Assembly: GCF_000800805.1 (NCBI RefSeq) | Contig: NZ_CP010070.1 | Span: forward strand, 992,001 to 1,056,000 | Direction of reading: 5' to 3' | DNA: 64,000 nt | DNA from: Candidatus Methanoplasma termitum | Lineage (GTDB): Archaea; Thermoplasmatota; Thermoplasmata; Methanomassiliicoccales; Methanomethylophilaceae | Shown here: piece after piece, positions 14,529 through 52,449 of the stretch | Layout of the letters: every line of letters begins with the position of its first letter | Numbering within the stretch: position 1 is the first letter of the stretch | Program-made: the position numbers and the translations under genes | Notes under the pieces: model-generated | Told to the model about the DNA's origin: nothing | What the model saw: only the letters and a program-made list of their open reading frames with translations | Databases searched by the model: none

Positions 14529-15787
14529 CACGGCACCTCGACTTTCATTCCCAGCGACCTCATGTGCTCCGGGAATTCCGGATATGAGACGGAACAGCAT
14601 TCCGCGTTGTCGACGGTCACTGCGCCGTCGCATAATAAGGACGCTACCGCCCCCGCCATCATGATACGGTGGTCCCCTAAGGTCACAACGCTTCCCCCTG
14701 CCAATTTTTTCTTTCCTTTGATGATGCATCCGTTGTCAGTGCCTTCGGCCTCCGCACCGATCGCTCTCAGCATGTTCACGGTGGATTGAATGCGGTCGCT
14801 CTCTTTGAACTTGAGCTGGGGCGCACCGTACAATCTGCTGGTCCCCGACGCAGTGCTGAGAAGCACGGCCAATATCGGGAACAGGTCGGGGCATCCGCCT
14901 ATGTCTACGTCGATAGCTTTGAGCTCCTTTTTCTTAACCGTCACCGAATCCTTGCCCACTGAAACATCTGCGCCAACTCTCTTCAGGATGTCGATGATGA
15001 CCCTGTCCCCCTGAGGATCGTCCATACATAACCCCTTCACTGTCACCTGACCGCCCAACGCTCCCGCGACGAGCGGGAACGCCGCAGACGAGAAATCCGC
15101 CGGAACAGTGTAGTCATAGGGGCGGTAGCCCGTCCCGCCTTTGACCTTCATGATGTTCTTGTTCCTTTCCACTTTCACTCCGAAGAGACTCATGATATGA
15201 GTCGTAACATCGATGTATGGTTCGGACACCATTTTGCCTTCTATTATTATCTCTGTGTCATGGGAAAGCATAGGGGAAGTGATCAGAAGGGACGTGATGA
15301 ATTGAGAACTTATGCCTCCGTTTATCGTTACTTTTCCGCCTTTGTTAGCCCCCCTTATTTCCACTGGAGGTCTTCCGTTGTCGGAACGGCATTCCACACC
15401 CATCTGGCTCAATGCGTCGAGGAGAGGACCCATAGGCCTTTTCCTGAGCGATGCGTCCCCCGTGAGGGTCACCCATTCGTCGAACATCGAGACAATGCCT
15501 GTGAACAGGCGTATAGTGGTCCCGGAATTATCCGCATCGACCGTTCTTTTCGGTGCGTGAAGTTTTCCCCCGGAGATGATAACTTCTTTCCCTTTCACGC
15601 TGACCGAGGCGCCCATGGACTCCGCTGCCCCGAGGGTCGCTTTCGTATCATCGGAGATCAGACAGTTGGTGATCCTGCTCTCCCCGTCCGCCATTGCCGA
15701 GAGAAAGAACGCCCTATGCGTATGGCTTTTCGATGGGGGAGGACTGAGCGTTCCTTTCAGTACCGCTTTGCCGAATGACATCATCAT
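14528..15787 (-). CDS. aroA: 3-phosphoshikimate 1-carboxyvinyltransferase (EPSP synthase)
   Basis: This is a 419-residue EPSP synthase: N-terminal PPPSKSHTHRA phosphate-binding segment, DNSGTTIRLFTG near residue 85, KRPMGPLLDAL, and a C-terminal LGDHRIMMAGAVASLL. It transfers enolpyruvate from PEP to shikimate 3-phosphate. Its ATG overlaps the aroK stop (ATGA), consistent with translational coupling. Confidence 0.93.
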   Translation of the reverse strand: MMMSFGKAVLKGTLSPPPSKSHTHRAFFLSAMADGESRITNCLISDDTKATLGAAESMGASVSVKGKEVIISGGKLHAPKRTVDADNSGTTIRLFTGIVSMFDEWVTLTGDASLRKRPMGPLLDALSQMGVECRSDNGRPPVEIRGANKGGKVTINGGISSQFITSLLITSPMLSHDTEIIIEGKMVSEPYIDVTTHIMSLFGVKVERNKNIMKVKGGTGYRPYDYTVPADFSSAAFPLVAGALGGQVTVKGLCMDDPQGDRVIIDILKRVGADVSVGKDSVTVKKKELKAIDVDIGGCPDLFPILAVLLSTASGTSRLYGAPQLKFKESDRIQSTVNMLRAIGAEAEGTDNGCIIKGKKKLAGGSVVTLGDHRIMMAGAVASLLCDGAVTVDNAECCSVSYPEFPEHMRSLGMKVEVP

Positions 15788-16620
15788 TCCTGCACCCCCC
15801 TTGTTCCGGAACTGATTAGTCCGATCAGGCCGCTCCTTTCCACAAAGTTCTCCGCATCTCCTTTCTCCAGGATCATGGCGACAGCCGGTCCGGAGCCCGA
15901 CACTCCCGCCCCCAGCGCACCGTTCTCCAGTGCGATCTCCGCGATCGTGTTGTCTATTCCGGAAACAGCGGCGATCATCCTTCCGTTCTCGGTCATTGCT
16001 TTGAACGGATCAGTCTTCGCCAATTCCACCAGTTTTTCAGATCTGGAAGATAATTTTCTCAGTTCTTCCAGAGGAAGTCCCGTTTTCTTTATTTTATTTT
16101 TTGGCGAGTATATCAATACATCATATTCTCCGATATCCTCATGGAAAAGTATCGTGTCCTTGCGGTTATCCGTTATCACAAGGCCTCCGAGATCGCACCC
16201 GCAGGCGTCGTCGAATGCGCCTGTGACGGTGACCTTTGCTTTCCTGGCACAGTTCACTCCGAGTCTTATCTTATCGACCTTCTCCATATCGAACCTTTCC
16301 GCCAGCAGAACTGACGATAATATCGCATTGCAGGCGGAACTCGAGCTCTTCAATCCGCGCGATATCGGTATCTCGGAGGAAATGTTCAACAGCCAGCCTT
16401 CAGGTTCTTCCATTCCCATGGCCTTGTATGCCTCTGCGACGCATATCCTCGCCATCTCTTTGTTCTCTGACGGGTCGTTCGATATACCGACATCCCTTGT
16501 CTGGCCGCATGGGTTGAAGACAGCGGTCGTTCTCAGTGTTATTCCGATCGTTGAGCCTATTCCGCAAGGCATTGCGTTGATCACGCTGACAGCGCCGTAG
16601 GATGTCCCCTTTCCTATCAT
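15784..16620 (-). CDS. aroK: Archaeal shikimate kinase (GHMP family)
   Basis: The 278-residue GHMP kinase is unrelated to the bacterial P-loop AroK. ATP-binding motif GLKSSSSACNA lies near residue 90 and the C-terminal GAGVSGSGPAVA motif near 250. The start MIGKGTSYG is chosen because it overlaps the aroDE stop (ATGA); the 16 extra codons upstream lie within aroDE. It phosphorylates shikimate between AroE and AroA. Confidence 0.88.
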   Translation of the reverse strand: MIGKGTSYGAVSVINAMPCGIGSTIGITLRTTAVFNPCGQTRDVGISNDPSENKEMARICVAEAYKAMGMEEPEGWLLNISSEIPISRGLKSSSSACNAILSSVLLAERFDMEKVDKIRLGVNCARKAKVTVTGAFDDACGCDLGGLVITDNRKDTILFHEDIGEYDVLIYSPKNKIKKTGLPLEELRKLSSRSEKLVELAKTDPFKAMTENGRMIAAVSGIDNTIAEIALENGALGAGVSGSGPAVAMILEKGDAENFVERSGLIGLISSGTRGVQE

Positions 16621-42015: not shown

Positions 42016-42984
42016 ATGTTTAGAAAAGCCCTTATAATAGGCATAAACAACTATCCACGTTCGCCACTATCTGGTTGCATTAATGACGCAACTGCTGTTG
42101 CTGAACTACTAAAGACCAACCATGATGGAACAAAGAACTTTGATGTATTGTTAATTAATGATGTAAAATCAAAGTCGGAATTGATGAAACACATCAAAAG
42201 CCTATTTGATGGTGCCAATGATGTATCTCTCCTATACTTCTCTGGGCATGGATGCTTTGATGAAATCGGCGGGTATCTTGTCACTCCCGATTATAAAGAA
42301 AATGATATGGGCGTGAATATGCGAGACATCATTACTCTTGCTTCCAAATCGAGGTCGAGGGATAGAATAGTGATTGCTGATTGTTGTCACTCAGGTATGT
42401 TGGGTTCAATGGACATTACCGAAGATACTACTGTTTTGCGCGAGGGAATGACGATTATGGCTGCTTGCAACAGAGAAGAAAGTGCCATAGAGTCATGCGG
42501 GCATGGAGTATTCACAAACTTATTAGTTGAAGGTTTAAAGGGCGGCGCATCAGACTTATCAGGAAATGTTTCCCCAGGCGGCCTGTATGCTTATATCGAT
42601 AGGAGTTTGGGGCCATGGGATCAAAGACCGATTTTCAAAACAAATGTAGCAAGGTTCTCCACAATAAGAAAAACTGCTCCCCCCATAGCTCGCGAAACAA
42701 TGATGAAAATAACAGAGATTTTTAATTCGCCTGACACTGAATTACAATTAGATCCATCTTTTGAATGCACAAATAATCCTACAACTAAACCATTGCTATT
42801 AGAGCCTTTTTCAGATGAAAAGAATGTAAAAACATTCAAAATTCTTCAACAACTAGAGAGTGTTGGCATAGTTGTACCAATTGGAGAGAGACACATGTAC
42901 TATGCGGCCATGAATTCAAAGTCGTGCAAACTTACTTCATTAGGTAAGCATTATTACTACCTCAGCAAAATAGGGAGAATATAA
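42016..42984 (+). CDS. Caspase-like (C14) peptidase, putative Thoeris-type effector
   Basis: The 322-residue protein has residues 1-210 as a caspase-hemoglobinase fold: KALIIGINNYPRSPLSGCIND, catalytic His78 in LLYFSGHGC and Cys124 in ADCCHSG, with oxidised-loop GGYLVTPDY. Residues about 230-322 are a separate C-terminal region ending in a winged-helix-like segment (FKILQQLESVGIVVPIGERH). In recently described type IV Thoeris, a TIR enzyme signals to a caspase-like protease effector; this gene lies between two TIR genes, 19 and 1 bp from them. Confidence 0.82.
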   Translation: MFRKALIIGINNYPRSPLSGCINDATAVAELLKTNHDGTKNFDVLLINDVKSKSELMKHIKSLFDGANDVSLLYFSGHGCFDEIGGYLVTPDYKENDMGVNMRDIITLASKSRSRDRIVIADCCHSGMLGSMDITEDTTVLREGMTIMAACNREESAIESCGHGVFTNLLVEGLKGGASDLSGNVSPGGLYAYIDRSLGPWDQRPIFKTNVARFSTIRKTAPPIARETMMKITEIFNSPDTELQLDPSFECTNNPTTKPLLLEPFSDEKNVKTFKILQQLESVGIVVPIGERHMYYAAMNSKSCKLTSLGKHYYYLSKIGRI

Positions 42985-42985
42985 C

Positions 42986-43369
42986 GTGGCAAAGAGAGCA
43001 TTCATAAGTTTTGACTACGATCATGATTTGGAAATAAAAGAAGCACTAGTTGGGCAAGCAAAGCTCCCCGATTCCCCTTTTAGCATTGTTGATGTCTCCA
43101 TCAAAGAGGCGATTGACACTAACTGGAAAGAATATGCTCGGAAAAAAATCAAGTCGTGCGATGTCGTTGTTGTGCTATGTGGAAAGCACACAAATGGAGC
43201 CAAAGGTGTGACCGCAGAGATATCAATTGCCCAAGAAGAAAACGTTCCTTACTTTCTTCTAAAGGGCCATAAAAATGAAAGTGTCCGACCAGTTGGCGCA
43301 AGGAATTCAGACAAGATGTATGACTGGACATGGGACAATTTAAAAGCACTATTCGCAGGCAGAAGATGA
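42986..43369 (+). CDS. TIR-like (ThsB/DUF1863-type) domain protein 2
   Basis: The 127-residue ThsB-like protein has KRAFISFDYDHDLEIKEAL, NWKEYARKKIKSCDVVVVL, then the helix GVTAEISIAQEENVPYFLLKG with candidate catalytic Glu78. It starts one base after the caspase stop, so it is co-translated. It is more canonical than TIR protein 1; having two TIR proteins may let the cassette sense different triggers. Confidence 0.8.
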   Translation: MAKRAFISFDYDHDLEIKEALVGQAKLPDSPFSIVDVSIKEAIDTNWKEYARKKIKSCDVVVVLCGKHTNGAKGVTAEISIAQEENVPYFLLKGHKNESVRPVGARNSDKMYDWTWDNLKALFAGRR

Positions 43370-43432: not shown

Positions 43433-43508
43433 GGGCTCGTGGTCTAGGGGTTATGACGTTTCCTTGACATGGAAGAGGTCGCCGGTTCAAATCCGGCCGG
43501 GCCCACCA
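43433..43508 (+). tRNA. tRNA-Val (GAC), CCA encoded
   Basis: Acceptor GGGCTCG/CGGGCCC, anticodon stem TTTCC/GGAAG closing loop TTGACAT (anticodon GAC), T-loop TTCAAAT, discriminator A and encoded CCA. It lies between the TIR cassette and the DpnII-type genes and could serve as an integration site for either block. Confidence 0.93.
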
Positions 43509-43567
43509 TACTGTTTTTTAACTGTTGTCCGATCCAGATCGGAAAAAGAAAAACATTGGTTAATGAT

Positions 43568-44518
43568 ATGACTCAGAATGAGAAGAATCAGTACATAGGC
43601 GATCTTCGATTGTGCCAACAAAAAAAAATTGTGTTACGACCTTTTATAAAATGGGCCGGTGGTAAAAACCAACTGCTTCCCGAAATTCAAAAAAGATACC
43701 CTAAAGAGCTCGGGAAGGACATCAATAAGTATGCCGAGCCTTTTGTCGGCGGGGGTGCAATACTATTTGATATTGTCACCAGCTATGATTTGGATAAGAT
43801 TTACATCAGTGACGTTAATAAAGAGCTTATTGCCACTTACAAAGCAATAAGAGATAATCCTGAAAAAATAATCGAGATACTCTCCGAGCTTGAGAAACAG
43901 TACCTTTCAATGGAAGAGTCGGATAGAGAGGAATTTTTTTACAAGAAACGCCAACGGTATAACGAAGTAAAGAAGGATGAAAATGCAGATGAGACAGAGT
44001 TACCAGCACTGTTTATTTTCTTAAACAGAGTTTGTTTCAATGGACTATATCGCGTAAACAGCAAAGGAGATTTTAACGTGCCTCATGGTTCCTATAAAAA
44101 TCCAAAAATATGTGACAAAGACAATCTAAAAAATATTTCTTCTAGTTTGAAAAATATTGAGATTGTTTGCGGAGAATATGACCTTTCCAAAGATTTCATC
44201 GATGAGCACACTTTCGTTTATTTTGACCCGCCTTACAGGCCGATAAATCAAACATCGTCTTTTACCTCATACACAGACTGCTCTTTCAACGATGATGACC
44301 AAAAAGGGCTGGCTGATTATGCAAAGGTTCTCTCAGAAAAGGGAGCTAAAGTCATGGTAAGCAACTCTGATCCTAAGAACTATTCTGATGATGGTTTCTT
44401 TGATGAGCTTTATTCAGACTTTAATATCGAACGTATTCCTGCTACTAGAATGATTAATTCCAACGCAGAAAAAAGAGGAAAAATAAATGAGTTGTTGATC
44501 ACAAACTACAAGGTTTGA
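43568..44518 (+). CDS. Dam/DpnM-type DNA adenine methyltransferase
   Basis: The 316-residue alpha-class N6-adenine methylase has FIKWAGGKNQLLPEI, the SAM motif AEPFVGGGAILF, VFLNRVCFNGLYRVN-type region and catalytic DPPYRP. It methylates GATC in the DpnII/Dam family. The start MTQNEK is chosen because the longer frame runs back through the tRNA-Val gene. Confidence 0.9.
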   Translation: MTQNEKNQYIGDLRLCQQKKIVLRPFIKWAGGKNQLLPEIQKRYPKELGKDINKYAEPFVGGGAILFDIVTSYDLDKIYISDVNKELIATYKAIRDNPEKIIEILSELEKQYLSMEESDREEFFYKKRQRYNEVKKDENADETELPALFIFLNRVCFNGLYRVNSKGDFNVPHGSYKNPKICDKDNLKNISSSLKNIEIVCGEYDLSKDFIDEHTFVYFDPPYRPINQTSSFTSYTDCSFNDDDQKGLADYAKVLSEKGAKVMVSNSDPKNYSDDGFFDELYSDFNIERIPATRMINSNAEKRGKINELLITNYKV

Positions 44519-44527
44519 GATTAAGCA

Positions 44528-45610
44528 TCATTCAAAAAAGGATCTGCTGCTGTTTTTAAGTGCACCCTCCCCCTTGTTCAACTTCCTAAACACGAACAAA
44601 TGCTCATGCATTGTGAGCAAGAAACTTGAATTGGAATATTTTCCAAGGTTTCTATCGCTTTCACAATTCCACTCTTTTTTTATTATATCCTCTTTAAGGA
44701 CAAATCCTTCTTTCAGGAAATCGAACATAAGTCTCGCTGTTATCGGGACGAAGTGGCTTCTGTTGTGAGTGTCACCCATTAATATTGAGCAGTATGCCCC
44801 AGGCTTCAAGACCCTGTGGAATTCTTTGATCGCCTTTTTGAATTCTGAGAAAAATACATCGTAGTCATTAATCTGAGAAAGATCCCCATCAACTGATGGC
44901 GCATACTTTATTATGTTCGCATAAGGAGGATGAGTTGCGATTAGATCTATTGACTCGTCAGCGATCTTGTCCAAGTTTCTAACATCCCCGATAAATGTTC
45001 TATGAACAGTTTTTGGAATTTGTTTTTTCATTGATTCTGGGAGTTCGAGTCTGTTTCTTGTAATAGAAATTGCTCCTTGGTTGATATCGATTGATATCGA
45101 GTTTCTTCCAGTGAGCATACATTCAACCGGCGTTGTTCCGCCACCCACCATAGGATCAAGTACAAGATCTCCTGGTTTAGAATAAAGTTCAATAATATTT
45201 CTCACAACGCGCGGAGACCAATTACCGCGATATTGTGGCGTATGTGATGCCCAATCGCCGCGGTCGGGGAAACTCCAAACTGTTGTTCGTTCTAATTTGA
45301 AATCTGATGGTTGAATCCCCGAGATTTTTCCTTTTTTGTAAATTTCCCAAGGAACGATCTTTTTGTTTTCAACCACCACGTCTTCTGCCTTTGAATCGAG
45401 TATCTCTATCATAGGCTGGTATACTATATCCTTTGAAATATAAAGGTATAGACTACATGTAGTAACGTAGCCGAATCCCGGCAACTTCATTATATCAAAA
45501 AAGTCTGAATTCCTCAGATCTTCTATGGTATTGTAGCCTGCTTCCTTTAGCATTTTCTCCTTCACAGGACCAATGCCCGGTATCCCTAAACCAACGTGCT
45601 TTTTACTCAA
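44528..45610 (-). CDS. Beta-class DNA methyltransferase with N-terminal helix-hairpin-helix
   Basis: This is a 360-residue protein. Residues 1-55 form two HhH-like motifs (GLGIPGIGPVKEKMLKEAG, DIMKLPGFG). The methylase part has LVLDPMVGGGTTPVECML (SAM site after the catalytic-first order is unclear) and THPPYANI, with the usual Asp/Ser replaced by His, then HRVLKPGAYCSILMGDTH. It could be the second methylase of the DpnII set or an independent enzyme. It is convergent with dam and divergent from the endonuclease. Confidence 0.78.
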   Translation of the reverse strand: MSKKHVGLGIPGIGPVKEKMLKEAGYNTIEDLRNSDFFDIMKLPGFGYVTTCSLYLYISKDIVYQPMIEILDSKAEDVVVENKKIVPWEIYKKGKISGIQPSDFKLERTTVWSFPDRGDWASHTPQYRGNWSPRVVRNIIELYSKPGDLVLDPMVGGGTTPVECMLTGRNSISIDINQGAISITRNRLELPESMKKQIPKTVHRTFIGDVRNLDKIADESIDLIATHPPYANIIKYAPSVDGDLSQINDYDVFFSEFKKAIKEFHRVLKPGAYCSILMGDTHNRSHFVPITARLMFDFLKEGFVLKEDIIKKEWNCESDRNLGKYSNSSFLLTMHEHLFVFRKLNKGEGALKNSSRSFFE

Positions 45611-45636
45611 TAAACAAGAATAGATCTCACTAATAA

Positions 45637-45650
45637 AATAGTATAAGTCA
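45637..45650 (+). promoter_or_regulatory. TATA box of the DpnII-like endonuclease
   Basis: AAAATAGTATAAG lies about 13-26 nt before the GTG start, consistent with leaderless transcription and with GTG as the real start. Confidence 0.45.
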
Positions 45651-45661
45651 GATAATGTCTT

Positions 45662-46522
45662 GTGACTTCAAAAAGAGACTTTGATGAATGGTTCTCTCAC
45701 TTCCGCCGTACCATCTATGGCTATAGCTATTATGTGGATTTCAACAAAGTTATTGGAAATGTTAATGCCATAAAAATAGAACTCAATCTGATGAATTCTC
45801 TGGTAGGCTCCAAAAATATAAAAGCGGATTTTATTGCATTGGCAAAAAAATATCCTGAGATATTAAAGACAATACCAGTTCTTATTGCAGTAAGAGAGAA
45901 AGAAATTGAGATAATGGATGAGCAAGCGAAAAACATTACTTATGATTTCAACAAAAGAAACCTCTCAGCGGAAGATTATTCGGTTTTTCTTGAGAAAACT
46001 GGATTGTTCGATTTGATTTCCAAGCACATAATTTCAAATCTCAATGATTATGTGACAGGTGTTGAAACCGGATTAGATTCTAACGCCAGAAAAAACCGTG
46101 GCGGCTCTGCGATGGAGAATCTGGTAGAAAAATATCTGAAGGCGTCTGGGTGTGAATATTACGTGCAGATGTCTGCTTCAACCATTAACAAAAAATGGGG
46201 GATTAATATATCCGGGCTTTCCACAGATAGCAAAGCAGAGAAAAAATTTGATTTTGTTGTGAAACACAGGAATGAAGTGTTCGGTATCGAGGTTAACTTC
46301 TATGCCAGCGGAGGTTCTAAATTGAATGAGACCGCCCGCAGTTACAAAATGGTGGCTGCCGAATCTAAACAGATTGACAGGTTCAACTTCATATGGGTCA
46401 CAGATGGTGGTGGCTGGCACAGTGCCAGAAATAACCTTAAGGAGACTTTTGAGACGATGGAACACATTTATTCAATTGCAGATCTGGAGAATGGTGTATT
46501 GAACGCTTTGTTCAAACCGTGA
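45662..46522 (+). CDS. DpnII/MboI-type restriction endonuclease (GATC)
   Basis: The 286-residue DpnII-family enzyme starts with GTG. Family blocks: ETGLDSNARKNRGGSAMENL, then KKFDFVVKHRNEVFGIEVNF (PD-(D/E)xK-like core), SGGSKLNETARSYK and FIWVTDGGGWHSARNNL. It is expected to cut unmethylated GATC and pairs with the Dam-type methylase 1.1 kb upstream. Confidence 0.9.
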   Translation: MTSKRDFDEWFSHFRRTIYGYSYYVDFNKVIGNVNAIKIELNLMNSLVGSKNIKADFIALAKKYPEILKTIPVLIAVREKEIEIMDEQAKNITYDFNKRNLSAEDYSVFLEKTGLFDLISKHIISNLNDYVTGVETGLDSNARKNRGGSAMENLVEKYLKASGCEYYVQMSASTINKKWGINISGLSTDSKAEKKFDFVVKHRNEVFGIEVNFYASGGSKLNETARSYKMVAAESKQIDRFNFIWVTDGGGWHSARNNLKETFETMEHIYSIADLENGVLNALFKP

Positions 46523-46559
46523 ACAAAGACTTGTTTCCTTGGATCTATTGAAAATAATC

Positions 46560-46976
46560 TTACAGATTAGCCTCCGACAGAATATCGCCCATTATCTCTG
46601 ATAGTGCTGCGCTGATATCAACCTCATCATCGTGCAATTTGTAAAGCCAATCTATTCCATAGTTTGCATAACCTTCGCAGATCTTAACTATTTCTTTCAT
46701 ATCTTTGAGCACTTCTAGCCCGCCCATGGAAAGTGCAATGGCTTTCATTATCCAAAGTCTTCCTTTTTCATCTCTGCTGAGCGTACTTAATACAAACAGA
46801 TCTTGTTTGGGCGTTGCCAATGTTACACTCTTTTTGTAATAGTAACCGATTGCAGCTGCTGCAACAAACACATCCGTCTTTGAATGCTTATAGAATGGAC
46901 TGTTAACGTCATCTACTATTGCATCATAAAGGTGGCTTTTTTCTTTCTCTATGGTTCCTCTGACATCTTCACTCAT
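46560..46976 (-). CDS. Unrecognised 138-residue protein, last gene of the SMC/PLD-helicase operon
   Basis: The all-helical acidic product has TDVFVAAAAIGYYYKKSV, then DLFVLSTLSRDEKGRLWIMK and IMGDILSEA. No signal peptide or known catalytic motif. It overlaps the DndD-like gene by 8 bp (start ATG inside the stop region), so it is surely part of that operon. It is not DndE by sequence. Confidence 0.65.
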   Translation of the reverse strand: MSEDVRGTIEKEKSHLYDAIVDDVNSPFYKHSKTDVFVAAAAIGYYYKKSVTLATPKQDLFVLSTLSRDEKGRLWIMKAIALSMGGLEVLKDMKEIVKICEGYANYGIDWLYKLHDDEVDISAALSEIMGDILSEANL

Positions 46977-48927
46977 AATTTACCACCTTTGAACACATTG
47001 TTTTCTCATCATATCTAATCAGATATTCTTTTCCGATGTGCGGCAATAATTTCTTTCTGACAGCAGGAGAATATTCCTTATCTGTAACAAGCATCACTAC
47101 TTGTGTGTCTTCCAAATAATGCGGCAGAGATTGTGCAATGTTTTCACTCGGCACATCAGAAATTCTACCAAGAGGAGTGTCGATTATCACTGGAACATCA
47201 TACCCGCTTACATGGTAAAGTGCGGCAGTAAACGCAAGTGCCAGCACCTGCCTTTCACCTGCAGAAATACGCCCAAGACTTTCTTTCCCATACTCATTCT
47301 TCAAGGAGATTTTATACTGGGCTCCAAGATCTTCAATATCGACACTGGAGAAGGCTTCCTTTTTCCATATCATGTTAAAGAAATAGCTACGCGTTTCATT
47401 CTCCAATCTCTTTCTGACATCATCAACGATGCTTTTCTTTACTTCATTCATGTAAGTTTCAATGGTTTTTGCATATTCCCAAACTGCATGCGCCTTTTTT
47501 TGCTCAACGCTATTCTTTGAAGATTTTGCAATCACTGCCTTTAGTTGTTCTTTGTCTCTGTGCAAGCTTGCATATTTATTACCGACAGTTCCTATTCTTA
47601 TGTTATTTTTATCTCTTTCAGATTCCAACTTTTGCCTCTCTGCATCTAATGTCCTTACTTCTTCAACGTCGCTTTTTTGGAGTGTGTGAGATATTGCATC
47701 AATGTCAGTGTTTCGTTTACTCAGATCAGAAACTAACTGTCTCTCCTTTTTGAGTAAATTCGAATACTCGGCAGTAAAATTTGTTCTTTTTAACAAATCC
47801 TCAATAACATATTTTCCATCCACGGCATCCCTTACCGTATCGTCTGGAAACACTTTGTTTAACAGTGTTTCGATAGCCACTCTATGTTCAGAGCCTTCTT
47901 CTATGCTTCTTCCACAAATACATACTCCGTTTTCAAGCAGTTCTTCGAGGAATGTATTCTTAATGTTGGGTGGCAAAACTCCTTTTTCGGTTTCACCCTC
48001 AATTAAATCTTTTGAATAACTTAACGCATGAACAGCAAAAACCACGGGCAAGCTTGACGATATTAATTCCTTTTTTGTTGTACCGACATTTTGTATTTGC
48101 CTTGCGATCCCAATTCTTTCATCCTCTAACCGGCGTCTATCTTGTTCAAGCTTGTTTATCATTGCGGGAGACTTATTCAGAAGAACTTCACGTATCTCTT
48201 CTAGTCTACTTGCGATTTTTTTATTTCTATCTACAAGTTCATCACGTTCTTTTTGGAAATTAAGCATATCTTCAGAAATCTTTTCATCTTGTTCTTGTAA
48301 CACGCCTTCTTCTGGTGACGAGAACCCCTTATATTCTTTCCAAAACGTATTTACTGTTGCCTTTATTGTTTGGATTGCACTATTGAGGACATCAATTTGA
48401 GCAATTTTCTCAACGTTTGTCTTAACCTTCGATGTGTCCATGAAATATTCATCCATTTTTTCACCATCGAAGAAAAAGAACCCGACAAGCTCCTCGGGAA
48501 TAAGATGCTTTTCGATATACCATTCGGGAGTTGGAACCTTTCTCCATCCCTTTTGACCATCGATTTCGTTTACAATGCCCGCAGTGGGGCCGTTTCTGAA
48601 CACCTTACCATTTTCTTTAACATATTCGCATTTTCTTTCAATGCTACATTCTGCTTCTTTTTCGCCCCACTTTGTTGTGACTCTGACAACTATTGTTTCC
48701 CCCTCGGATAGCGTTTTTTCAGCATGATCGTTTAGAATTCCTGTTGAGACATTGATTACTTTGTCACCATACATACACCACAAAATCGCACTCATGAGAT
48801 TGGATTTCCCGGCACCGTTTGCTCCCTGGATCATGGTGAAATTTTTCTTAGGATCGGTCGAAATCGGAATTACTGTCGTTCCCCCAAATTGTTTGAAATT
48901 CTCTATCGTAATATCAAGGAGTTTCAT
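46969..48927 (-). CDS. DndD/SMC-like ABC ATPase
   Basis: The 652-residue protein has N-terminal Walker A GANGAGKSNL (residues about 36-45) after ENFKQFGG, and FFFFDGEKMDEYF typical of DndD. Long coiled coils run at 190-270 and 370-520, with a zinc-hook-like CIC between. The C-terminal signature LGRISAGERQVLALAFTAAL and Walker B VPVIIDTPLGR complete the ATPase. DndD works in phosphorothioate modification, but DndC and DndE are absent here, so it probably acts in a distinct defence system, perhaps as a DNA sensor for the helicase. Confidence 0.8.
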   Translation of the reverse strand: MKLLDITIENFKQFGGTTVIPISTDPKKNFTMIQGANGAGKSNLMSAILWCMYGDKVINVSTGILNDHAEKTLSEGETIVVRVTTKWGEKEAECSIERKCEYVKENGKVFRNGPTAGIVNEIDGQKGWRKVPTPEWYIEKHLIPEELVGFFFFDGEKMDEYFMDTSKVKTNVEKIAQIDVLNSAIQTIKATVNTFWKEYKGFSSPEEGVLQEQDEKISEDMLNFQKERDELVDRNKKIASRLEEIREVLLNKSPAMINKLEQDRRRLEDERIGIARQIQNVGTTKKELISSSLPVVFAVHALSYSKDLIEGETEKGVLPPNIKNTFLEELLENGVCICGRSIEEGSEHRVAIETLLNKVFPDDTVRDAVDGKYVIEDLLKRTNFTAEYSNLLKKERQLVSDLSKRNTDIDAISHTLQKSDVEEVRTLDAERQKLESERDKNNIRIGTVGNKYASLHRDKEQLKAVIAKSSKNSVEQKKAHAVWEYAKTIETYMNEVKKSIVDDVRKRLENETRSYFFNMIWKKEAFSSVDIEDLGAQYKISLKNEYGKESLGRISAGERQVLALAFTAALYHVSGYDVPVIIDTPLGRISDVPSENIAQSLPHYLEDTQVVMLVTDKEYSPAVRKKLLPHIGKEYLIRYDEKTMCSKVVNYE

Positions 48928-49105
48928 TTTTATACCCCTTTTTAATAGTGTCCTTACACCTATTGATCTTCAAGGTTTTCACTTCCGTACCGTTTCCTAG
49001 TTCGACCTCTGCCTTGAAAATACTTTTCAATGCCTCTTTTGTAGCATTGCTTGCATCTAATCCATCTATTCCAGTCATTACCAGTGAATTTTTAACGCGA
49101 CTCAT
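48914..49105 (-). CDS. 63-residue protein between PLD-helicase and DndD-like genes
   Basis: The product MSRVKNSLVMTGIDGLDASN... is small and basic, with an LSMT-like strand and a Lys-rich tail. It overlaps the helicase by 14 bp and the ATPase by 14 bp, in different frames, so conservation of the overlaps rather than homology supports it. Role unknown, perhaps a structural adaptor. Confidence 0.6.
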   Translation of the reverse strand: MSRVKNSLVMTGIDGLDASNATKEALKSIFKAEVELGNGTEVKTLKINRCKDTIKKGYKNETP

Positions 49106-51248
49106 TACAATCACCCAATACAATTCCTCTTTTTTCAGCTTCTTTTTTGATGGCCGTCATGCTTTCACTATGGTTCATTGAATATATTGAAAATTCACAA
49201 AACCTTCTAAATTCTTTGTTAAAAATATCAGATTCAGCATCACGATACTTTCCAGATTCTTCACCGGGGATGACGATGAAGTCAAAGATGTTTGCATGTG
49301 TTTTTTCTGACTTTGTTTTCTCATTGAAATATCTTCTCAACACCCGGCCTCTTCTTTGGATATATTCTCTGGGATTTCCAGTGCTTGCCATAATTATTGC
49401 ATTTTCCGTAGAAGGAACATCCACTCCTTCGTCTAAACATTTTATTGCAACAAGGGCCCTAAGATCTCCATTACTGAATAGTTTGAGAATCTCTTTTCTT
49501 TCGGCGTGCTGTTCACTTGATGTGAAACGCCTGCACACAATATTGTCTTGATTCAGTATAGTTATTATTCTTTCTGTGTACGTGATGTTATCGTCATCAC
49601 TTCCATCAGAACAATAAACTATGCAATGATTTAAGAACCCTTTCTTATTCCATTCTTCGAGGTTTTCACCGAATGCAGTCACTTTTGCTGCAGCTCGTTT
49701 TACTATTCTGGATCTATTTATGCGCAGTTGCTCCAACGCTTTTTTTGCGGATTCACTCATCTCTTCTTTTGGATCAGCGCCTGCATATTTTGCGATTTTT
49801 TTAGTAAGTTCCGCATACTCTCCCAGTTCTTCTGGGTTGCATGAAACAAAAATTGGGTAGTAGTTATATGGCGTTAGATAAGACTTTCCAGTATCTGGAT
49901 TAATTGTTTTGATTGCTTTCTCCAAAGAAAAGTCAAAGACACTCCCACCAAAATAATCAACTATTGCCTCGCTTCCTTCATCATCAAAATACCTAGTCGG
50001 TGTCGCACTTAAACCGAGCCTATAACTATAATCCTCTGATAACCCTTCACGATATTTGGTAGCTCCTGCATTATGAACCTCATCACCTATGATTATCTTC
50101 CTTATTTTGAGGCTTCCAATCATCTCTGCAATTGCTCTGGTAGCAAGCGTATCATATGTTGTTAACACAATTAAATTATCAATAACTCCAAACTTCAGAA
50201 GATTTACCGATTCTCTTAGGATTGGTTTCCATACTTTAGAACTGTCAAAAGCCTGTACTATATTCAAATCATCCTTGAAACTGTCAAATGTATCTCTAAT
50301 CGTAACATCCCACTGTGGAATCAGATGTTGAAATGGCACCGCGACTATCAAAATAAATTTGGAAATATTGTTCTTTGCTAATATTTGCTTAACGGCGTTT
50401 GTTGCTGCATAAGTTTTACCCGTCCCGGTGGCCATGCTGAATATTCCAATTCCGTTGTTTTTGATCCAGCTATCGATGGCTTTTTGCTGATAATCCCTCA
50501 GTCTATTTTTTCCTGTTGCTTTTTTCTTAAATATATGAAGATCCAACACACTTTTCGGTACGAGCTCAATCCATTGATTTTTTAATGCCAAAGGAAAAGG
50601 TACAGTCTTTTTTCGTACGTCGGTTCCGTAATTCCAATATCTCTCAAACCGCTCTATGCGATTTTTAATACGATTGTCATCCCCTCGCCAATCACAATAA
50701 ACATCAAAATCTTCAATATTAACAGATAAAGCTGCCCCTGTTGCATTAATTGATCCAGAAAACGCAACAGTGTTTTTTCCATCTTTCAGTATTCCGTATT
50801 TATTATGAAAAATACCTTCCTTATCCACTGATGAACGAACTCGCCCTTCATCGTCAACTAACAACACAATTCTGATCTCCAAAAATCCATTTGCGACCAT
50901 CCAACCCAGCGCTTGAGTGCCGTCGTTTTCGATCTCTTTCGAAGTCAGGGTTTTTGCCAGCACGACCCCTAATTGTTCGCTCAGCGCATCAGGATTATTC
51001 ATTGCTTTATCGAGTATTTCAGCATCTTCCTTACTTAGGATCGGAGATGTTAACAGTCTCATTTTCCCTTTATTGGCTATAAAATTAGCAATGCCCTGTG
51101 CAGATGCTGAAAGAGATGAAGAAGTGAAAAACCCAGATTGCCTGTCATATTCTAAAGCTGCACTCAGTGCGGGCTCAAAAAACTCAATAACTATATCATT
51201 AAAGTTTGAATCGTAGGATTCTTTAAAATCTATTTCTTTTAGCCCCAT
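49092..51248 (-). CDS. PLD-nuclease-domain SF2 helicase
   Basis: The 718-residue protein has an N-terminal phospholipase-D-like domain with one HxK motif (FHNKYGILKDGKNTVAFSGS, residues about 147-166) and possible S-x-N-x-T companion. The SF2 helicase core: RDYQQKAIDSW, Walker A MATGTGKTYA, DEVHNAG (DExH), LSATPTRYF, ALVAIKCLDEGVDVPS and QRRGRVLRR. It likely unwinds and cuts foreign DNA. Its stop overlaps the next small gene. Confidence 0.85.
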   Translation of the reverse strand: MGLKEIDFKESYDSNFNDIVIEFFEPALSAALEYDRQSGFFTSSSLSASAQGIANFIANKGKMRLLTSPILSKEDAEILDKAMNNPDALSEQLGVVLAKTLTSKEIENDGTQALGWMVANGFLEIRIVLLVDDEGRVRSSVDKEGIFHNKYGILKDGKNTVAFSGSINATGAALSVNIEDFDVYCDWRGDDNRIKNRIERFERYWNYGTDVRKKTVPFPLALKNQWIELVPKSVLDLHIFKKKATGKNRLRDYQQKAIDSWIKNNGIGIFSMATGTGKTYAATNAVKQILAKNNISKFILIVAVPFQHLIPQWDVTIRDTFDSFKDDLNIVQAFDSSKVWKPILRESVNLLKFGVIDNLIVLTTYDTLATRAIAEMIGSLKIRKIIIGDEVHNAGATKYREGLSEDYSYRLGLSATPTRYFDDEGSEAIVDYFGGSVFDFSLEKAIKTINPDTGKSYLTPYNYYPIFVSCNPEELGEYAELTKKIAKYAGADPKEEMSESAKKALEQLRINRSRIVKRAAAKVTAFGENLEEWNKKGFLNHCIVYCSDGSDDDNITYTERIITILNQDNIVCRRFTSSEQHAERKEILKLFSNGDLRALVAIKCLDEGVDVPSTENAIIMASTGNPREYIQRRGRVLRRYFNEKTKSEKTHANIFDFIVIPGEESGKYRDAESDIFNKEFRRFCEFSIYSMNHSESMTAIKKEAEKRGIVLGDCNESR

Positions 51249-51330
51249 TAGTTCTACCTATCAGAAAAAAGATCTCTTACCCTGATAAAAATATAGTGAT
51301 CCAGACTGAAACAAATCTGATCGTTCTTGT

Positions 51331-52449
51331 TTAGAGTATAACTATATTTTCACTCAAAACAACATCTCTCTGTTTCTTCTTCCCAAGTATTTCCTGTATC
51401 TTGGAACTGTGAAGCCCTTTGATCTTCTCAACCTCATCAGAGTTATAGTTGGGAGTCCCTTTGGCAATGATCACATCACCGCAAACGATATCCACGATCT
51501 CTCCGCTTGAGAAATGCCCCGACACTCCCACTACTCCCGCCGGCAGCAGGGACTTGTGATCTCTTATCGCCCTTTCCGCCCCTTCGTCAACAAAGATCGT
51601 TCCCTGCGATCTCGCTGATTTCAGCCACCTTCTCTTTTTCGATATCTGGGTATCTGAAATAAAGATGGTTCCGATATCCTCTCCCCTGACAGACTTCAGC
51701 ACAGCCTCGTCGATCGAACTCAGAATGATCATCATCCTGCAGCCCGCATCCTTGCATATCTCCGCCGCTCTGATCTTCGTCCTCATCCCGCCGACGCCCA
51801 TCCCGCTCACCGAGTCCCCCGCCATCTCTCTGATCTCCGGCGTGATCTCTTCAACAACGGAAATGAACTTAGCATCCTTGTGGATGTTCGGGTTCTTGTC
51901 GTACAATCCGTCCACATCCGACATTATTATCAGAAGGTCCGCATCCACTCTGCTCGCCAACACAGCGGACAATGTATCGTTGTCCCCGAACACCGCTCCT
52001 ATCTCCTTGATGGAAACAGCGTCATTCTCATTGAAGATCGGAACTACATTATGCTTTAGAAGCGAATCAATGGTATTATTCAAATTAAGAACACTATCTC
52101 TATCAGAATAGATATCCATCGTCAGAAGTATCTGAGCAACGATTATCCCCTGTTTCTGGAAACTCTCTATCCACTTCTGCATCAGTATGCTCTGACCCAC
52201 CGACGAAGCGGCCTGCCTTATCGGAATGTCGTTCGGATTCGGTTTAACTCCCATCACCTTGAGCCCGATCCCGATCGCTCCCGACGTAACGATGAGAACT
52301 TCCTTCCCTTGATCCTTGAGCGCCTTCACCTGCTCCGCGATGGAATCCATCATATCCTTGGAAGCGGTCGAACTTCCTTTGGTGATGGTTGTTGTTCCTA
52401 CCTTAATGACGATCCTTTCGACATCTCCGAGGAGTTCTTTTCTTCCCAT
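51331..52449 (-). CDS. proB: Glutamate 5-kinase with PUA domain
   Basis: The 372-residue kinase has VIKVGTTTITKGSS, IVTSGAIGIG, FNENDAVS, DVDGLY and GGMRTKIRAA of the amino-acid-kinase fold, then a C-terminal PUA domain (from about 280; SLLPAGVVGVSGHF). It phosphorylates glutamate for proline synthesis. It follows proA by 4 bp. This bacterial-type route is patchy in archaea and suggests transfer. Confidence 0.92.
   Translation of the reverse strand: MGRKELLGDVERIVIKVGTTTITKGSSTASKDMMDSIAEQVKALKDQGKEVLIVTSGAIGIGLKVMGVKPNPNDIPIRQAASSVGQSILMQKWIESFQKQGIIVAQILLTMDIYSDRDSVLNLNNTIDSLLKHNVVPIFNENDAVSIKEIGAVFGDNDTLSAVLASRVDADLLIIMSDVDGLYDKNPNIHKDAKFISVVEEITPEIREMAGDSVSGMGVGGMRTKIRAAEICKDAGCRMMIILSSIDEAVLKSVRGEDIGTIFISDTQISKKRRWLKSARSQGTIFVDEGAERAIRDHKSLLPAGVVGVSGHFSSGEIVDIVCGDVIIAKGTPNYNSDEVEKIKGLHSSKIQEILGKKKQRDVVLSENIVIL

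Follow-up and report, generated by a model that had tools for sequence, protein, structure and literature searches.

An apparently intact PbeABCD cassette with no DndC in its genome, beside a DpnII-type restriction-modification system at a tRNA-Val/proB hotspot

The window analysed here is a stretch of 64,000 nucleotides from Candidatus Methanoplasma termitum. Between a tRNA gene and proB it has a variable island of 7.8 kb (43509-51330), which holds four overlapping pbe genes and a DpnII-type restriction-modification (R-M) cassette. The island and its edges are made up as follows:

43433..43508 (+), tRNA-Val(gac), bounding the island on the left
43568..44518 (+), Dam-family (GATC) adenine methyltransferase (TIGR00571 5e-90)
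44528..45610 (-), HhH + N6/N4 DNA methyltransferase (PF01555 3e-27, HHH_5)
45662..46522 (+), DpnII-type GATC restriction endonuclease (PF04556 5e-105)
46560..46976 (-), pbeD, 138 aa, DndE-like tandem ribbon-helix-helix protein (predicted)
46969..48927 (-), pbeC, 652 aa, coiled-coil ABC ATPase resembling DndD, of the CxC (Zn-hook) type
48914..49105 (-), pbeB, 63 aa from ATG, small, fast-evolving helical protein (predicted)
49092..51248 (-), pbeA, 718 aa, HKD (PLD-type) nuclease and ResIII/DEAD helicase
51331..52449 (-), proB, right edge, conserved beside tRNA-Val in congeners

These coordinates agree with the overlaps of 14, 14 and 8 bp that an earlier sequence-only reading had reported for the four minus-strand genes, and ORF analysis found all four frames open and intact. 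An alternative TTG start would give a PbeB of 69 aa. The Dam reading frame begins at 43469, inside the tRNA, and has an ATG past the tRNA at 43568. The proposed defence setting is also borne out, with the DpnII R-M cassette and TIR-like and caspase-like genes nearby. The latter lie left of tRNA-Val at 42016-43369 (+), where a caspase-like (Peptidase_C14) gene is directly followed by a ThsB-type TIR-like gene, possibly as another defence pair.

PADLOC places the two large proteins in known families, the 718-aa one in PbeA (7e-214) and the 652-aa one in PbeC (E=0). Pfam finds ResIII, Helicase_C, and a weak PLDc_2 in PbeA, which has the motifs HxK(x5)D (residues 148-156), GSxN (165-168), Walker A MATGTGKT, and DEVH; every column invariant across ten aligned PbeA sequences is kept, including those of the HKD and helicase motifs. 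The earlier description of the ATPase as DndD-like holds: PbeC is a DndD-like ABC ATPase of the CxC type, as judged by the PADLOC match, its CICG hook, and a tree in which it groups with PbeC. The sequence C-x-C[G/N/K] is present in the hook region of 45 of 54 PbeC proteins and in none of the 14 DndD compared.

The two small proteins, neither of which has a PADLOC match, had both gone unrecognized in the earlier reading. The AlphaFold model of PbeD (pLDDT 94) has as its top structural match the DndE of Natronorubrum (7x4e, Z 9.6 over 109 residues), followed by the DndE crystal structures 5wtu (Z 9.0) and 4lrv (Z 8.8) and then by chains of the F-plasmid relaxosome (Z about 7). Sequence comparison gives weaker results than the fold: hhalign against the DndE profile gave E 1.7e-4 with a probability of 49%, and a sequence search of the PDB returned nothing useful, so that only the fold comparison is informative. 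PbeD also matches TIGR04062 (dnd_assoc_4, phosphorothioation-associated protein 4) at 1.7e-6, which is under the curated cut-off, and several PbeD of other loci match the same model below cut-off. Its modelled fold makes the 138-aa protein a relative of DndE, which agrees with Rakesh, Aravind and Krishnan 2024 (PMC10853773); the DndE partner that was thought to be lacking is therefore present as the product of this gene. The 63-aa protein remains without a family match in PADLOC, Pfam, and TIGRFAM-type searches, and its sequence matches none of the named PbeB proteins; its structure model has three helices at modest confidence (pLDDT 71). An ORF of 43-80 aa occupies the PbeB place in most other Pbe loci, and the 63-aa protein is PbeB by place and size, its sequence similarity being too weak to serve.

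Given the overwhelming matches of PbeA and PbeC, the DndE fold of PbeD, and a canonical gene order, the operon is identified as PbeABCD, which was described by Xiong et al. 2019 (PMC6459918) and is also called the CxC-ATPase/DndE system (PMC10853773). It had instead been proposed as an unnamed system. The lack of PADLOC matches for PbeB and PbeD would fit that proposal, but against the evidence just given it is scarcely credible, and the named matches to PbeA and PbeC contradict it directly. Its broader idea, an SMC/ABC-like ATPase combined with a nuclease-helicase, is sound and agrees with published predictions. The search for the same four genes in other genomes, which it had suggested, found the order A - small ORF - C - D conserved in about 50 loci, which come from archaea, from numerous phyla of bacteria, from plasmids, and from phage or viral contigs.

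Three known systems come closest to the cassette. DndCDEA-PbeABCD of Haloterrigena jeotgali A29 (PMC6459918) shares all four genes and their order, is likewise archaeal, and has a PbeA with PLD, ResIII, and helicase domains; its PbeB has 66 aa (63 here) and its PbeD 152 aa (138 here). Unlike that system, the present one has no DndC in its genome, has a PbeC from a clade without adjacent DndC, and has a DpnII R-M neighbour. The CxC ABC-ATPase - clade-2 DndE systems with methylases (PMC10853773) share the CxC hook, a DndE-like PbeD, the HKD-SF2 helicase, the small protein, and the absence of a phosphorothioate (PT) writer. The resemblance extends to the nearest PbeC relatives of the window, the haloarchaeal loci L038, L039, L051, and L100, which adjoin methyltransferases; in contrast to those systems, the methyltransferases here are outside the operon, as part of a self-standing DpnII R-M cassette. 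Canonical DndABCDE also has a DndD-like ATPase and a DndE-fold protein, whereas the present cassette has no DndC, and its ATPase has a CxC hook and groups with PbeC.

The DndC partner had been reported missing from the operon, and this is true of the whole genome (one contig, 99.96% complete), where the best DndC match scores 27.7 bits and the cut-off is 290.4. Among 60 genomes with PbeA in the genome collection, DndC is adjacent in 15, elsewhere in 9, and absent in 36. The PbeC of the window falls inside an 11-member clade (SH-aLRT 99) in which none of the 11 has DndC alongside, and no DndC was found elsewhere in those member genomes that could be searched; the tree was built quickly and has long branches, and the positions of loci within the clade are not firm. 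In the four haloarchaeal members named above, the adjacent methyltransferases are of the PF01555 type (N6/N4). Solitary cassettes are not rare: 320 of 553 Pbe cassettes were reported as such, with 155 of these 320 near methyltransferase genes, and the same study left undecided whether such cassettes are defunct or rely on a different mark (PMC6459918). The present locus is a clean case on which this question, left since 2019, can be tested, since its genome is complete and has one Dam gene and a congener has an empty site.

The neighbouring cassette is a DpnII type II R-M system with an endonuclease and a Dam-family methyltransferase. The triple of DpnII, Dam, and HhH-methyltransferase is present without Pbe in G009 and G013, genomes of the same taxonomic order, and is therefore a separate R-M system; a similar set is found in L224. 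The HhH-methyltransferase was considered as a component of Pbe and rejected, as it accompanies DpnII and Dam in genomes where Pbe is absent. The site is a defence hotspot, where the genus swaps defence genes: in congener G064 it is empty, with the tRNA-Val end 7 bp from the proB stop, while G056 has a C5 methyltransferase (dcm) in the gap, G057 has a Dam gene just beyond tRNA-Val, and G060 has dndC, dndD, and dndE just beyond it. Pbe is found in one of the 17 genomes of the genus. Integration of the tRNA type, which would leave the tRNA end as a direct repeat, was also rejected, since no direct repeat of the tRNA-Val 3' end of at least 12 bp was found elsewhere in the window. The hotspot suffices to explain the adjacency of Pbe and DpnII. 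In G060, the DndC, DndD, and DndE genes (L244, G060:C12:1-3666) end just before tRNA-Val, and the contig begins inside dndC. The reading preferred here, with a probability of about 0.85, is that the cassette is a complete and apparently intact PbeABCD that was acquired horizontally along with or beside a DpnII-type R-M system at a tRNA-Val/proBA hotspot.

An antiviral role for the cassette is predicted from its family: in H. jeotgali, loss of any one pbe gene weakened protection against virus SNJ1 (PMC6459918). From published work and knowledge of the families, PbeC and PbeD would form an ATP-driven DNA-scanning clamp whose ribbon-helix-helix domains would read sequence, PbeA would act as the effector, a helicase/nuclease that halts the replication of DNA entering the cell, and PbeB might couple or restrain PbeA. 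Cleavage by the HKD domain is argued for in one study (PMC10853773), and a replication block without cleavage was seen in the other (PMC6459918). With the PT writer absent, self DNA would be marked otherwise, or the cassette would be idle. The likeliest self mark, tentatively, is a methyl mark from a methyltransferase acting in trans, the adjacent GATC enzymes being one candidate; a trigger independent of any mark comes second and is somewhat doubtful, and a dormant cassette ranks after both. It is likewise only tentatively suggested that the cassette represents a PT-free PbeABCD lineage, in which PbeC-PbeD may read Dam GATC methylation or another methyl mark, or may sense the unmarked invader.

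Dormancy would make the cassette a stranded restriction half whose PT writer was lost. Without PT modification the H. jeotgali PbeABCD gave no protection (PMC6459918), so that a solitary cassette may be inactive; the genome has no DndC, and the DndCDE genes by the same tRNA in G060 indicate that the site gains and loses writers. Still, dormancy is judged unlikely, as the four frames are intact, the catalytic motifs are kept, and the PbeC clade has no DndC-adjacent member, a pattern that speaks for a stable existence without PT and not for a recent loss. A re-wiring to the neighbouring R-M system, in which GATC methylation by Dam/HhH would mark self and PbeABCD would block replication of DNA without the mark, is tempting because haloarchaeal PbeABCD works with PT at GATC too (PMC6459918). 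The Dam gene, at a distance of 2 kb from pbeD, is the genome's sole PF02086 (D12) gene, Dam is near Pbe in L039, L052, and L068 as well, and in L073, a Saccharibacteria contig, the same triple directly adjoins a very divergent PbeABCD (Dam 57%, DpnII 59%, and PbeC 21% identical). However, the triple and its like occur without Pbe, the hotspot gathers unrelated cargo, and the arrangement differs, with DpnII adjoining pbeD here and Dam adjoining pbeA in L073. Of 36 genomes with DndC-less Pbe, 2 have Dam within reach of it, where random placement would give 0.41 (P 0.065). This comparison disregards defence islands, contigs that end early may undercount Dam in it, and the window itself does not count because it had prompted the test. 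Dam adjacency as a sign of functional coupling is thus unsupported statistically, and the re-wiring is distinctly improbable.

Having no DndC is different from having no sulfur chemistry. In 16 loci without recognized DndC (L054, L055, L059, L065-L067, L069, L072, L078, L082, L086, L101, L105, L106, L113, and L115), a class-V aminotransferase of the cysteine desulfurase type is directly upstream of pbeA and is possibly part of a divergent sulfur writer; in L055 and L066 a PAPS-reductase-type protein is near as well. In five others (L071, L076, L081, L111, and L138) this position is held by a PP-loop ATPase (SGGKDS, PAPS-reductase-like, 265-368 aa) that is too divergent for the DndC model, and one of these five genomes has DndC elsewhere. 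The window contains neither type of gene.

Other Pbe loci have further neighbours. A radical-SAM-type protein adjoins Pbe in five DndC-less loci, in some of which it overlaps the neighbouring gene:

L047:13968-15992 (-), radical-SAM gene
L058:7897-10011 (+), radical-SAM gene
L136:4732-6630 (+), radical-SAM gene
L085:9301-9951 (+) and 14782-15957 (-), radical-SAM genes
L063:8940-10382 (+), radical-SAM gene

The gene is beside pbeA except in L063, where it is beside pbeD, and the motif TRGCxxxCxxC is present in L058, L085, and L136. The protein could be an unrecognized DNA-modifying partner; no gene of this kind was found in the genome of the window at E 1e-8. The association is new, in that the available portions of PMC6459918 and PMC10853773 do not describe it with Pbe. 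In the cyanobacterial loci L083, L087, L088, L089, L093, L095, L096, and L109, where the N-terminal PLD part of PbeA is missing (about 490 aa), the gene immediately upstream of pbeA, in the same orientation, is of the LexA type.
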